A DNA stretch of 39,763 nucleotides from Porphyromonadaceae bacterium (GTDB lineage Bacteria; Bacteroidota; Bacteroidia; Bacteroidales; Porphyromonadaceae), in contig JAUMYQ010000013.1 in the NCBI GenBank assembly GCA_030528555.1, positions 1-39,763 of the forward strand, written 5' to 3'. Under the pieces are notes generated by a model. That model had not been told where the DNA came from. It ran no database searches and was given only the letters and a program-made list of their open reading frames with translations. Shown here piece after piece: positions 221 through 3,600 of this stretch. Positions within the stretch are counted from its first letter, which is position 1, and every line of letters begins with the position of its first letter. The translations under genes and the position numbers were made by a program.

Positions 221-844
221 ATGGACTATCTAGCACAGATTACGGAGATACATTCTTCTCCAGAGCTTATCAAGAAGCTTTACGAGTATAGCATCCTCAA
301 GATATATCCTTCAGGAAGTTGTATTCTCAATGAACATGCGCACATTCGCTCAATACCTATCGTGATTCGAGGTGTTATGAAGGTAATTCGTTCGGAGGAA
401 GATGGTCGAGAGATCTTACTCTACTATATCGAGGCGGGTGAGAGTTGCATTATGTCCGTGTTAGGAGGGCTACATAACCAGCGAAGTAAGGTAAGAGTGG
501 AGGTTGAGGAAGAAGCAGAGATCCTTTTCTTACCTCTAGAGCGTGTTTCCGAGTTCATGCGAGAGTATCCTGAATGGCTGAGTTATATTTTTCGCTCCTA
601 CCACAAGCGATTTGAGGAATTGCTCAAGATGATTAATGCTATCGCCTTTCGACGAATAGATGAACGTCTGCTCGATCTTTTAATGAAGAAGCAGCAACTT
701 GCCCAATCTTCTACACTCCATATCACACACGAGCAGCTCGCTGTGGAGTTGGGGACTGCTCGTACAGTCGTTTCACGTCTTCTTAAACAACTCGAAGAGG
801 CTGGTAGGCTTTCTTTGGGACGTAATCGTATCACGCTTATGTGA
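221..844 (+). CDS. Crp/Fnr family transcriptional regulator
   Basis: This 207-residue protein has the usual Crp/Fnr size and layout: an N-terminal cyclic-nucleotide-binding-like beta barrel (about 20-115), a linking helix (about 120-150) and a C-terminal winged helix. The helix-turn-helix is clear near residues 169-198 (EQLAVELGTARTVVSRLLKQ). There is no N-terminal Cys cluster, so an Fnr-type Fe-S sensor is unlikely. Only two cysteines occur, C34 and C76, the latter in GESCIMS. The next three genes handle sulfane sulfur, so it probably regulates them. Its stop codon lies inside a candidate operator, GTGACaaaaGTAAC, placed ahead of the permease gene. The start is ATG, with no obvious Shine-Dalgarno. 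The family call is firm; the ligand and regulon are inference. A thiol-based persulfide or redox switch through C34/C76 is one possibility. Confidence 0.9.
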   Translation: MDYLAQITEIHSSPELIKKLYEYSILKIYPSGSCILNEHAHIRSIPIVIRGVMKVIRSEEDGREILLYYIEAGESCIMSVLGGLHNQRSKVRVEVEEEAEILFLPLERVSEFMREYPEWLSYIFRSYHKRFEELLKMINAIAFRRIDERLLDLLMKKQQLAQSSTLHITHEQLAVELGTARTVVSRLLKQLEEAGRLSLGRNRITLM

Positions 845-884
845 CAAAAGTAACGATATAGCCAGGTAGGTTTGACGAACTTTG
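841..884 (+). promoter_or_regulatory. Candidate Crp/Fnr operator plus -7 box for the permease gene
   Basis: The imperfect dyad GTGACaaaaGTAAC (841-854) precedes a Bacteroidota-like -7 box, GAACTTTG (877-884, consensus TAnnTTTG). The operator centre to the end of the -7 box is about 37 bp, which puts the dyad near -41 to -44, a class II activator position. The same pair with identical 40-bp offset occurs at 1739-1782. The element overlaps the regulator's stop codon. Because the -7 box follows the TTG at 872, that TTG is unlikely to be the start of the next gene. Confidence 0.6.
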
Positions 885-916
885 CTCGAAAGGTCTATCC
901 GATAACTGCTATTTAT

Positions 917-1711
917 ATGTATACTTTAGGTCTCTTGGCATCCGTCCTCATTGGTATCTCTCTTGGGCTGATCGGTGGTGGTGGGAGCATACTTACCGTT
1001 CCCGTACTTGTCTATTTGTTAGGCGTAGATCCCGTACTCTCAACAGGCTACTCCCTCTTCATAGTCGGGATTACGAGTGCTGTGGGTAGTATACCCTATT
1101 TTCGTGCTTCGCTCGTACATCTTCCTACGGTACTTAGCTTTGGCTTTCCTTCCATTGTATCTGTCTTCCTTACTCGGGCATATCTTCTGCCGGCCATCCC
1201 AGAAACTATCTTGATATCAAGGAATCTTATGCTTGACAGGGGAACGATGCTCATGTTGCTTTTTGCCCTTTTGATGCTAGTTGCTTCGATAGGGATGATT
1301 ACTCCTAACAGATCTCGAGCTGAAAGTATTCGGATAAGCCGATTTGCTTATCCTCTTGTGATTTTTGAAGGGCTTCTGGTGGGGATGCTTACAGGGCTTG
1401 TGGGAGCAGGGGGAGGCTTTCTGATAATTCCTGCATTGGTAATTTTGGGTAAGCTTCCCATTAAGGAAGCTATTGGGACCTCATTGTTAATAATTGCTGC
1501 CAAGTCGCTCTTGGGGCTTGTTGGGGAGAATGGTCTTATGGACTGGAATTGGAAGCTATTGTTTGGGGTGATAGGTTTAGCCATCGGTGGGCTCTTAATT
1601 GGAGTGAAGCTCTCTCAGAGTGTTGATGGAGCAAAACTCAAGCCTGCTTTTGGTTGGTTCGTTTTACTCATGGGGATCTATATGATTATCAAGGAGACAC
1701 TGCTGAGTTAG
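917..1711 (+). CDS. TauE/SafE family sulfite/sulfur-compound permease
   Basis: This is a polytopic membrane protein of about 264 residues with the internal duplication typical of TauE/SafE (DUF81). Two glycine-rich repeats are seen: GLIGGGGSILTVPVLVY near the N-terminus and GLVGAGGGFLIIPALV in the second half. Seven or eight hydrophobic segments are visible. The family transports sulfite, sulfonates or other sulfur anions across the inner membrane; the substrate here cannot be read from sequence. I chose ATG at 917. An upstream in-frame TTG (872) would add residues that overlap the promoter and look non-membrane. The gene lies between a Crp/Fnr regulator and a persulfide dioxygenase/rhodanese fusion, so export of sulfite or thiosulfate made by those enzymes is the likely job. 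It probably has its own promoter (841-884). Confidence 0.87.
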   Translation: MYTLGLLASVLIGISLGLIGGGGSILTVPVLVYLLGVDPVLSTGYSLFIVGITSAVGSIPYFRASLVHLPTVLSFGFPSIVSVFLTRAYLLPAIPETILISRNLMLDRGTMLMLLFALLMLVASIGMITPNRSRAESIRISRFAYPLVIFEGLLVGMLTGLVGAGGGFLIIPALVILGKLPIKEAIGTSLLIIAAKSLLGLVGENGLMDWNWKLLFGVIGLAIGGLLIGVKLSQSVDGAKLKPAFGWFVLLMGIYMIIKETLLS

Positions 1712-1738
1712 TCTATTAGAGAGACAGAACCAGTTTGT

Positions 1739-1782
1739 GTGACAAAAGTAGCTGTAGGATAGGGAAGCCTTAACGACCTTTG
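1739..1782 (+). promoter_or_regulatory. Second copy of the operator/-7 arrangement
   Basis: GTGACaaaaGTAGC (1739-1752) followed by TAACGACCTTTG, with TTTG at 1779-1782, repeats the 841-884 element. The first TGTGACAAAAGTA is identical, the spacing is identical, and both end in ACGA(A/C)CTTTG. The intervening sequence is not conserved, so this looks like selected sites and not a recent duplication. It would drive the MBL-rhodanese gene and the rhodanese behind it. Confidence 0.6.
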
Positions 1783-1825: not shown

Positions 1826-3241
1826 ATGAAAGTAGAACAGATCTACACTGGTTGCCTTGCTCAAGGAGCCTATTATATCACCTCTAAGGGTGAAGCTGCA
1901 ATAATAGATCCATTGCGCGAGACGAAGCCCTACTTAGAGCGTCTCGAACGGGATGGAGTACGTCTCAAGTATATTTTCGAAACGCATTTTCATGCCGATT
2001 TCGTGAGTGGTCATTTAGACTTAAGTCGTGCAACAGGTGCACCTATCGTCTATGGCCCTACTGCAAAGCCTGGCTTTGATGCTATGATAGCAGAGGACGG
2101 TGAGGATTTTTATTTAGGAGACATTGTCATACGGGTGTTGCATACCCCTGGCCATACTATGGAGAGTAGCTGCTACCTTCTCATTGATGGGCAGGGCAAA
2201 GAGCAGGCATTATTTAGTGGAGACACCCTTTTCCTAGGGGATGTGGGACGTCCAGATTTAGCCCAAAAGGCCGCTGGTCTTACACAAGAGGAGCTCGCAG
2301 GTTTACTCTATGACAGTCTTTATGGTAAAATCTTGCCTTTACCTGATGATGTGACGATATATCCAGGGCATGGTGCTGGCTCTGCTTGCGGTAAGAATAT
2401 GATGCGTGAGACGGTGGATAACCTTGGTAATCAGCGTAAAGTCAATTATGCTCTTAATCAGCCTAGCCGTGAGGCCTTCATTGCCTCCGTCATTGAGGGG
2501 CTATTGCCTCCACCTGTTTATTTCGGGGATAATGTTGCTATGAATAAGCAGGGCTATGAGAACTTTGAGAATGTGCTCGATGCGGGGTTAAGTCCGCTTT
2601 CTCCTGAACGTCTGGAGGCTCTAGTTAAAGTTTCGGGAGCTCTCATCCTCGATACTCGCTCTCCAGAAGAGTTTGCTAAAGGATTTATCCCTGGAGCTAT
2701 TAACATTGGCCTTGATGGTGACTTTGCTCCTTGGGTTGGTACTTTGATTGTCGATGTACGCCAACCTATAGTATTGGTGGCTGAGGCAGGTAGAGAGGAG
2801 GAGGCTATTACGCGACTTAGCCGTGTCGGTTTCGATCGAGTACTTGGTTATTTGGATGGAGGTTTTTCATCTTGGGAGATATTAGATAAACCAACGGATC
2901 GGATTGAGCGTATCTCAGCTAAAGCTCTTGCGAAGAAACTGAAGGAAGAAGAATACAAGATTATTGATGTGCGTAAGGAGAGCGAATATACCTCTTCTCA
3001 TATAGAAGGAGCTTATGGTTTTCCCTTAGCTTACATCAACGATTGGATAGGGGAGTTGCCTCGAGAGGGCCATTTCTTTTTACACTGTGCAGGAGGCTAC
3101 CGCAGTATGATAGCTTCTAGCATCTTGCGTTCACGAGGCTATCATAACTTCACTGATGTAGAGGGTGGTTTTGGAGCGATTAGTCAAACAGATATTCCTA
3201 AGACAGATTTTGTATGTACAAGCAAAGTCTTAAGAAAGTAA
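1826..3241 (+). CDS. Metallo-beta-lactamase/double-rhodanese fusion (persulfide dioxygenase-sulfurtransferase type)
   Basis: This 471-residue protein has three domains. The N-terminal metallo-beta-lactamase domain (about 1-230) carries THFHADFVSGH (H54, H56, D58), the HTPGHT motif with H110, and SGDTLFLGDVGRPD with D133. This is the ETHE1/persulfide-dioxygenase pattern with a mononuclear iron site. Two rhodanese domains follow. The first (about 262-352) has DTRSPEEF but no Cys where the active-site loop should be (LVAEAGR), so it is probably non-catalytic. The second (about 363-455) has the active loop CAGGYRS with C421. The layout matches CstB-type enzymes, which oxidise persulfide and pass sulfur to sulfite to give thiosulfate. 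The neighbouring permease and rhodanese fit one sulfide-detoxification pathway. The ATG at 1826 is about 44 bp after the -7 box. Domain assignment is strong; the exact reaction is inferred from the family. Confidence 0.9.
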   Translation: MKVEQIYTGCLAQGAYYITSKGEAAIIDPLRETKPYLERLERDGVRLKYIFETHFHADFVSGHLDLSRATGAPIVYGPTAKPGFDAMIAEDGEDFYLGDIVIRVLHTPGHTMESSCYLLIDGQGKEQALFSGDTLFLGDVGRPDLAQKAAGLTQEELAGLLYDSLYGKILPLPDDVTIYPGHGAGSACGKNMMRETVDNLGNQRKVNYALNQPSREAFIASVIEGLLPPPVYFGDNVAMNKQGYENFENVLDAGLSPLSPERLEALVKVSGALILDTRSPEEFAKGFIPGAINIGLDGDFAPWVGTLIVDVRQPIVLVAEAGREEEAITRLSRVGFDRVLGYLDGGFSSWEILDKPTDRIERISAKALAKKLKEEEYKIIDVRKESEYTSSHIEGAYGFPLAYINDWIGELPREGHFFLHCAGGYRSMIASSILRSRGYHNFTDVEGGFGAISQTDIPKTDFVCTSKVLRK

Positions 3242-3276
3242 TAGCACTTGTGTCATTCATATCAATAGTATTCATT

Positions 3277-3600
3277 ATGTTCGGATTCTTAAAGAACCTT
3301 TTTTCTCAAGTAGATGAGACTGAAGTACTTCAAGCGCTTGGTGGAAAACCCTTTCTCGTGGATGTGCGTACTCCTGATGAATTTGCATCTGGGAGTGTAC
3401 AAGGCGCGATTAACATCCCATTGGATGAACTTCCTGAACGTATCTCAGAGTTTTCAGGTAAGGAAAGTGTTGTAGTATTCTGCCGTAGCGGTAACCGCAG
3501 TGCGCAAGCGAAAGTCATATTGGATCGCAGTGGGGTGCCTAATGTTTGCAATGGAGGCACTTGGGAGCAGGTAGCAGCTTTAAAAAAAGCCTCTAAGTAA
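3277..3600 (+). CDS. Single-domain rhodanese-like sulfurtransferase
   Basis: From ATG 3277 this is a 107-residue rhodanese domain: PFLVDVRTPDEF, GAINIPLDELPERI and the active loop CRSGNRSAQA with catalytic Cys. It would carry sulfane sulfur as a Cys persulfide. The reading frame is open back to ATG 3214, which would overlap the previous gene by 28 bp and add a hydrophobic N-terminus (KKVIALVSFISIVFIMFGFL). With that start the protein would be membrane-anchored or exported. I prefer 3277 because it gives a normal single-domain length and a 35-bp gap, but the hydrophobic extension is suggestive and unresolved. It probably shares a transcript with the upstream fusion gene. Confidence 0.85.
   Translation: MFGFLKNLFSQVDETEVLQALGGKPFLVDVRTPDEFASGSVQGAINIPLDELPERISEFSGKESVVVFCRSGNRSAQAKVILDRSGVPNVCNGGTWEQVAALKKASK

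Follow-up and report, generated by a model that had tools for sequence, protein, structure and literature searches.

A Crp/Fnr-type regulator gene in a Porphyromonadaceae bacterium lies directly upstream of two sulfur genes, each preceded by a copy of the same short repeat. Does the regulator control these genes, and is the repeat its operator? We addressed this in the 39,763-nucleotide stretch of DNA that carries the locus (hereafter the window), for which a preliminary description had proposed a dedicated regulon, and in related genomes. The regulator gene (221–844; forward strand, as for the other genes and sites of the locus) encodes 207 residues with cNMP_binding and HTH_Crp_2 domains. 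Further downstream are a TauE/SafE family permease gene (tauE, 917–1711; PF01925, 134 bits), a gene for a protein with MBL-fold and rhodanese domains (1826–3241; Lactamase_B and Rhodanese) and a single-domain rhodanese gene (3214–3600; PF00581). The ATG start of tauE was chosen by comparison with relatives, and an alternative TTG start, at 872, is open as well. The MBL-rhodanese protein is a candidate persulfide dioxygenase-rhodanese, a name that is provisional because the protein reaches none of the cut-offs set for the NCBIfam equivalogs listed. No terminator was found between the regulator and tauE in the window. Just after the contig start and upstream of the regulator gene, at 5–69, interlocked inverted repeats, GTTCCCGA and TCGGGAAC, with runs of T form a terminator-like element.

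The repeat TGTGACAAAAGTA occurs at 840–852 and 1738–1750, identical to the base, and TTTG follows at 881–884 and 1779–1782, 40 bp past the G of GTGAC in both copies. The box regions finish ACGAACTTTG and ACGACCTTTG, with dissimilar DNA intervening in the two copies. Within this arrangement, the dyad GTGACAAAAGTA(A/G)C occupies 841–854 and 1739–1752, with ANNTTTG at offset 37 in each case. Operator 1 (840–854) holds the dyad GTGAC-AAAA-GTAAC and overlaps the stop codon of the regulator (TGA, 842–844), and operator 2 (1738–1752) holds GTGAC-AAAA-GTAGC. The −7 box of the tauE promoter, GAACTTTG (877–884), is the consensus TAnnTTTG without its first T; that of the MBL-rhodanese promoter, GACCTTTG (1775–1782), was read directly and compared with the sites of relatives. 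Direct reading thereby reproduced the repeat, the 40-bp spacing and the box endings of the preliminary description, and the spacing to TAnnTTTG stood as well; the first base of that box did not, G replacing T in both window copies. GTNACAAAAGTNRC has two occurrences in the source genome (1.78 Mb, 85.6% complete), both at the locus, and its reversed control has one. The composite GTRACNNAAGTNRC-N23-ANNTTTG was found twice in the window versus never in 200 dinucleotide shuffles of it. The bare 14-mer, allowed up to two mismatches, is no more frequent in the window than chance predicts, with 3 occurrences against an expectation of 3.3: the signal is carried by the exact motif and its spacing, and the bare motif is the weak point.

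If the repeat belongs to the regulator, the two should travel together. We searched 38 genomes of the family, the source genome included, and found a close orthologue of the regulator (71–86% identical) in 12 more, giving 13 of 38; two further matches represent other proteins (54% and 33%). All 13 loci keep the gene order regulator, tauE, MBL-rhodanese, with GTNAC-N4-GTNRC at the regulator end and a second site before the MBL gene. One of these 26 sites is mismatched, by a single base: site 2 of locus L011 (that of genome G006), GTGATTAAAGTAGC. The full composite has 24 sites, the two missing ones being site 1 of G014 (GTTAC) and site 2 of G006. All 24 lie at the locus, in the same 13 genomes that have a regulator orthologue of at least 71% identity; the other 25 genomes lack it, and the reversed control gave no hit in the 38. 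Among the outcomes that would speak against it, the preliminary description had named a motif common before unrelated genes and a motif absent from orthologous promoters. The family shows neither, with every site at the locus and both sites in each of the 13 loci. It is hardly credible, on this evidence, that the repeat is a shared constitutive promoter element, or that copy 1 is kept for its stop codon. Copy 1 does overlap the stop, and the −7 box lies within the conserved block, but copy 2 is away from any stop codon, and the composite is missing from the 25 family genomes that lack the regulator and use the same type of −7 box.

Which Crp/Fnr protein is this? Genome G006, which we take to be P. 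gingivalis ATCC 33277, encodes a protein, taken as PgRsp, that is 71% identical to the window regulator. It has three HTH_Crp_2 genes, the same number as the Crp/Fnr proteins named for P. gingivalis (HcpR, PgRsp and CrpPg, three in all) in the available part of PMC12040651. As described in the accessible portion of the work of Smiga and Olczak (2019, PMC6955866), PgRsp has 207 residues, is a member of the Crp/Fnr superfamily outside the known families and binds heme; Cys76, Met78 and His85 were mutated, and single alanine changes left the spectrum unaltered. The window regulator, of equal length and with Cys76, Met78 and His85 in place, is a PgRsp-family member and the orthologue of P. gingivalis PgRsp. 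These three residues are invariant in 81 of 81 sequences, the conservation of Cys76 being partly ascertained, as one scan pattern included it. Other identities fared less well. We rejected CrpPg (PG0396), its structure 2GAU lying outside the matches at 1e-10, and the CRP equivalog NCBIfam PRK11753 was not reached (59.4 bits against a cut-off of 266). FNR uses four cysteines for its 4Fe-4S cluster; in the 81 sequences, a single column has cysteine in more than four, and the FNR-type set of four was not found. At the position aligned with CRP Glu181, the window has Thr, and the 81 sequences have Val (59), Ala (18), Thr (3) or Glu (1). A close plasmid copy of the regulator was not found; 75 plasmid records hold relatives, all below 60% identity.

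The published targets of PgRsp differ from those seen here. In electrophoretic mobility shift assays it bound the promoters of hmu, bcp and pgrsp, according to the accessible portion of PMC6955866, whereas the window sites precede tauE and the MBL-rhodanese gene. In G006, the exact composite occurs once, at tauE, so the published targets are without it; 8 kb of G006 that include the pgrsp promoter hold no further site at up to one mismatch. PgRsp may act indirectly on the heme uptake and protease genes for which effects have been reported. A word search of that portion of PMC6955866 for consensus, rhodanese and TauE found none of the three, and the literature searched, partly on other questions, held no published PgRsp operator or sulfur role and nothing tying either the protein or the operator to sulfur genes. 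The operator sequence itself brought up a single paper, on a nematode, and PMC13014561, which was listed with a mention of TauE, yielded no relevant passage.

To follow the arrangement beyond the family, we scanned named genomes and, of the 412 relatives found, kept the best 80 loci (67–86% identical, 766 kb), which span Porphyromonas, Tannerella, Pedobacter, Sphingobacterium, Flavobacterium, Chryseobacterium, Chitinophagaceae and others. In these best 80 of 412, all 137 operators are co-directional with the regulator (reversed control 0), and ANNTTTG stands at offset 37 in 121 of the 137 and at other offsets between 10 and 59 in 5. At least one composite is present in 73 of the 80 loci and at least two in 44; 7 lack it. 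A site lies at the regulator end in 71 of the 80, in 64 of them overlapping the stop exactly, at the last coding base. The consensus of 135 sites is CTTrTGTrACnAAAGTARCTGTAc followed by a fixed AnnTTTGy box, with A in 98%, the three T in 100%, 99% and 90%, and G in 94%. In 79% of these sites, C or G takes the place of the first T of TAnnTTTG, and operator position 12 is G in 76%.

Several loci of this set stand apart in other respects. L037, L038, L041, L042, L063, L068 and L077 (Flavobacterium, Pedobacter and Paenimyroides) have an extra operator that precedes the regulator match by about 120–135 bp, a hint of autoregulation at some loci of these genera. L052, L054, L059 and L060, with equal coordinates and identical sites, come from records named Pedobacter, Chitinophagaceae, Filimonas and Bacteroidetes; their identity may reflect recent transfer or contamination. 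Paired regulator loci within one record set occur in Pedobacter cryotolerans, P. ureilyticus, P. nanyangensis and the MAG SZAS-27 (L063/L087, L037/L061, L070/L077 and L031/L056).

The rigid spacing allows the promoters to be placed. The sigma-A box of F. psychrophilum occupies −12 to −5, as given in the available part of PMC9723704; carried over to the window, this predicts transcription starts at about 889 and 1787. With the box there, the dyad centre would fall at −41.5, a class II activator position. The class II placement of the preliminary description is thus predicted from a start site inferred in this way, and the offset behind it is fixed in 121 of 137 operators. The predicted centre is that of E. 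coli CRP class II promoters, where the dyad lies at −41.5 and the protein is an activator; the window differs in having a Bacteroidota −7 box and a protein well below the CRP cut-off. The conserved TGTA behind the operator would fall at about −34 to −31, the same region as the −33 element of Bacteroidota.

This geometry bears on the sign of regulation. Many Crp/Fnr proteins both activate and repress. Expression in the pgrsp mutant shifts in both directions, by the accessible account in PMC6955866, which fits a regulator that binds the two sites and represses or de-represses. We consider this unlikely, since the fixed centre, predicted at −41.5, and the −7 box without its first T at most sites fit an activator, and a repressor would have no need of rigid spacing.

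The genes around the sites suggest a physiological setting for the regulator. Relatives' loci also hold a Pyr_redox_2 oxidoreductase adjoining tauE (SQR-like by context), cytochrome bd, OsmC, a 1-Cys peroxiredoxin, thioredoxin, a rhodanese-thioredoxin and a sulfur transporter. These neighbours do not have their own site in every case; some sit behind one in a shared run of genes. Across Bacteroidota, the module adjoins other sulfide and persulfide genes, and the gene content points to sulfide, persulfide and sulfite handling, with the signal itself inferred. In L053 (G007:C31:94313-95724) and L051 (6044–7443) the MBL-rhodanese gene was matched in two pieces and is either broken or misassembled, and in a Porphyromonas MAG (L022, 8522–8732) the sulfur genes are closely followed by a cobalamin riboswitch.

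The operators, their rigid spacing, their one-to-one match with regulator presence across the family and the gene content are all read from the DNA. They make it very probable that a PgRsp-family protein activates this sulfur-detoxification cluster in the class II manner through two operators. A dimer of the 207-residue protein (221–844) would bind two operators of the form TGTRAC-nAAA-GTARC centred at −41.5 and would act as a class II activator at two promoters whose −7 box is poor (C/G-AnnTTTG). Activation would switch on sulfur detoxification through the TauE/SafE exporter, the MBL-rhodanese and the second rhodanese. The signal may be sulfur-derived, either a persulfide on the invariant Cys76 or sulfide or redox state at the heme reported for PgRsp. 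The dedicated regulon proposed at the outset, comprising the TauE/SafE permease and the MBL-rhodanese, finds support in the comparison among close orthologues, on which binding and a preference for activation over repression are presumed.

Known systems share parts of this design. The HcpR2 regulon of anaerobes including Bacteroides uses a GTNAC-N4-GTNAC-type dyad bound by a Crp/Fnr regulator, with a symmetric GTAACnnnnGTTAC before hcp and Pro at the CRP Glu181 position, as set out in the available part of Rodionov et al. (2005, PMC1274295). The dyad class is common to both. Unlike in HcpR2, the window sites are GTGACAAAAGTAAC and GTGACAAAAGTAGC and precede tauE and the MBL-rhodanese gene rather than hcp; the window protein has Thr at the Glu181 position and the family Thr, Val or Ala, in place of Pro. 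PgRsp-family sites in general have a right half that is mostly GTAGC, a centre nAAA and sulfur targets, as opposed to the symmetric HcpR2 site. The remark in the preliminary description that the operator had not been described needs two corrections: the dyad class is known from HcpR2 and its GTAACnnnnGTTAC, and the regulator family has been studied as PgRsp, without such an operator in the accessible portion of PMC6955866. What is new is the specific form of the operator, within a dyad class already known. BigR/SqrR, CstR and FisR resemble the role proposed for the window regulator in controlling persulfide dioxygenase, rhodanese and TauE-like genes; they belong to the ArsR, CsoR and sigma-54 activator families, not to Crp/Fnr.

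One further family genome, G009, which with the 13 makes up the 14 of 38 that carry tauE and MBL genes, suggests that the regulator can be exchanged. Its tauE (53%) and MBL (59%) genes occur without a close PgRsp orthologue. Their promoters carry GTAACCTTTGTTAC and GTAACCTATGTTAC with the same 40-base spacing and a perfect TAnnTTTG, the sole two such composites in that genome; at L129 (G009:C22:17880-18819) symmetric GTAACnnnnGTTAC operators precede both genes. Another regulator can therefore fill the role. A distant Crp/Fnr protein of G009 (33%) has the recognition helix RVVVSRLLK, like most of the PgRsp family, and a regulator swap inside the Crp/Fnr superfamily is likely. The architecture persists in G009 while operator symmetry and regulator differ. 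Might a different Crp/Fnr protein, HcpR- or CrpPg-like, then bind the two window sites as well? Such a binder could draw on the dyad class shared with HcpR2, on the related site that G009 uses without PgRsp and on the three HTH_Crp_2 matches of the source genome, one of them below cut-off. We regard it as quite improbable, because the family composite tracks the regulator in 13 of 13 genomes and is missing in 25 others, and the HcpR motifs of P. gingivalis, in the portion of the literature available, are of another type.

We then asked how far assignment of the operator to the PgRsp-family regulator reaches, using 247 Bacteroidota genomes drawn evenly across the phylum and a regulator profile with a threshold of 1e-60. 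The exact composite occurs in 26 of the 247 (36 sites; reversed control 4), the regulator in 33 and both in 10, which leaves 16 of the 26 composite-bearing genomes without the regulator at 1e-60. Strict specificity of the composite across the phylum is accordingly not supported. Several composites in regulator-less genomes, GTAACATAAGTTAC among them, resemble those expected of other Crp/Fnr proteins. At 32 regulator loci of this sample (the window's left out; 5–6 kb each), GTNAC-N4-GTNRC lies within 300 bases of the regulator end in 16 and is absent from that distance in the other 16; in 13, a site whose box stands at offset 37 lies within 1200 bases. Six of the 32 have tauE in the 5–6 kb stretch, and all six have GTNAC-N4-GTNRC with a box 37 bases on before tauE. 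Distant regulators (44–59%) often have a site exactly at the stop with a freer centre (GTAACAATTGTCAC, GTAACATTTGTAAC). L148–L151 and similar loci (61–67%) have neither tauE nearby nor a site. The AAA-centred operator and strict co-occurrence are limited to close orthologues; the architecture is wider, but not found everywhere. The phylum sample narrows the reach of the claim and leaves class II activation by the PgRsp-family protein highly probable for the window itself.

The junction between regulator and tauE has a second feature in relatives. Using sites that have TT(T/C) at offset 40 and for which 110 bases were available, duplicates merged, we compared 62 regulator–tauE junctions with 66 other operator sites; a few of the latter are displaced tauE sites, and one of these, L055:6110, does fold. 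Bases 18–72 after the operator start had a mean folding z-score of −2.31 at the junctions (40 below −1.5) versus 0.03 at the others (4 below −1.5). The cost of opening the start region differed between read-through and promoter-derived mRNA by a median of 5.6 kcal/mol at 61 junctions, against a median of 0.95 kcal/mol for 63 of the other sites (Mann-Whitney p 8e-10); 1 of the 62 and 3 of the 66 had dropped out under the rules of this test. When 3′ arms were swapped between dissimilar loci, the own arm of the 54 junctions outperformed a mean of 87% of swaps, and in 33 of the 54 it outperformed at least 95%; at the 66 other sites the mean was 45%, and 4 of the 66 reached that level. Clustering at 55% identity gave 11 junction clusters with a mean z of −1.94 (Wilcoxon p 0.0015). 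The swap and cluster tests omit 8 of the 62 junctions (six with another next gene, and L071 and L091), chosen after the z-scores had been seen. The six loci where the next gene is not tauE have a mean z of +0.27, and we rejected the hairpin as a trait of every regulator end. Nor is it cleanly explained as insulation needed only where the regulator is not autoregulated: L068 and L077, which have an upstream operator, also have the hairpin. An ungapped alignment of the window with 54 relatives gave no consensus structure in RNAalifold, and stem registers vary among clades, so the argument for a hairpin draws on single-sequence z-scores, opening energies and arm swaps. The window has no convincing hairpin, with a z of +1.0, no better than shuffles, and opening costs of 4.8 versus 3.5 kcal/mol. 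Rfam gave no match at the locus in the window and no hairpin family in six relatives.

A precedent exists in gene e (lysozyme) of phage T4, where the promoter lies between the arms of a stem-loop; the start region is hidden in the long mRNA, and the short one is made without the 5′ arm (PMC3014915, in the part available). In Flavobacterium, start-region structure tunes translation, as the available part of PMC6847099 reports. The junctions of relatives are predicted to share with gene e a promoter between stem-loop arms; they differ in lying on a bacterial chromosome, between a regulator and a permease gene. Here, the 5′ arm would sit between the operator and the −7 box and would be present only in read-through mRNA, where it would mask the start region of tauE; transcripts begun at the activated promoter would lack it. 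We lean towards the view that in many Bacteroidota the tauE promoter is nested in such a stem-loop, its arms co-varying while operator and −7 box stay fixed, and that the permease is double-locked by a Crp/Fnr activator and by an RNA hairpin that, as in T4 gene e, depends on transcript origin.

For the PgRsp family, known until now from a mutant phenotype and heme binding and with no operator, these results provide a precise predicted DNA site and a small dedicated regulon. They give the family a probable physiological field, the handling of sulfide, persulfide and sulfite, which is testable in many genera, and offer a well-defined candidate for an activator-type promoter in Bacteroidota. The junctions of relatives, in several families, would add a chromosomal candidate for a promoter inside a translation-blocking hairpin.
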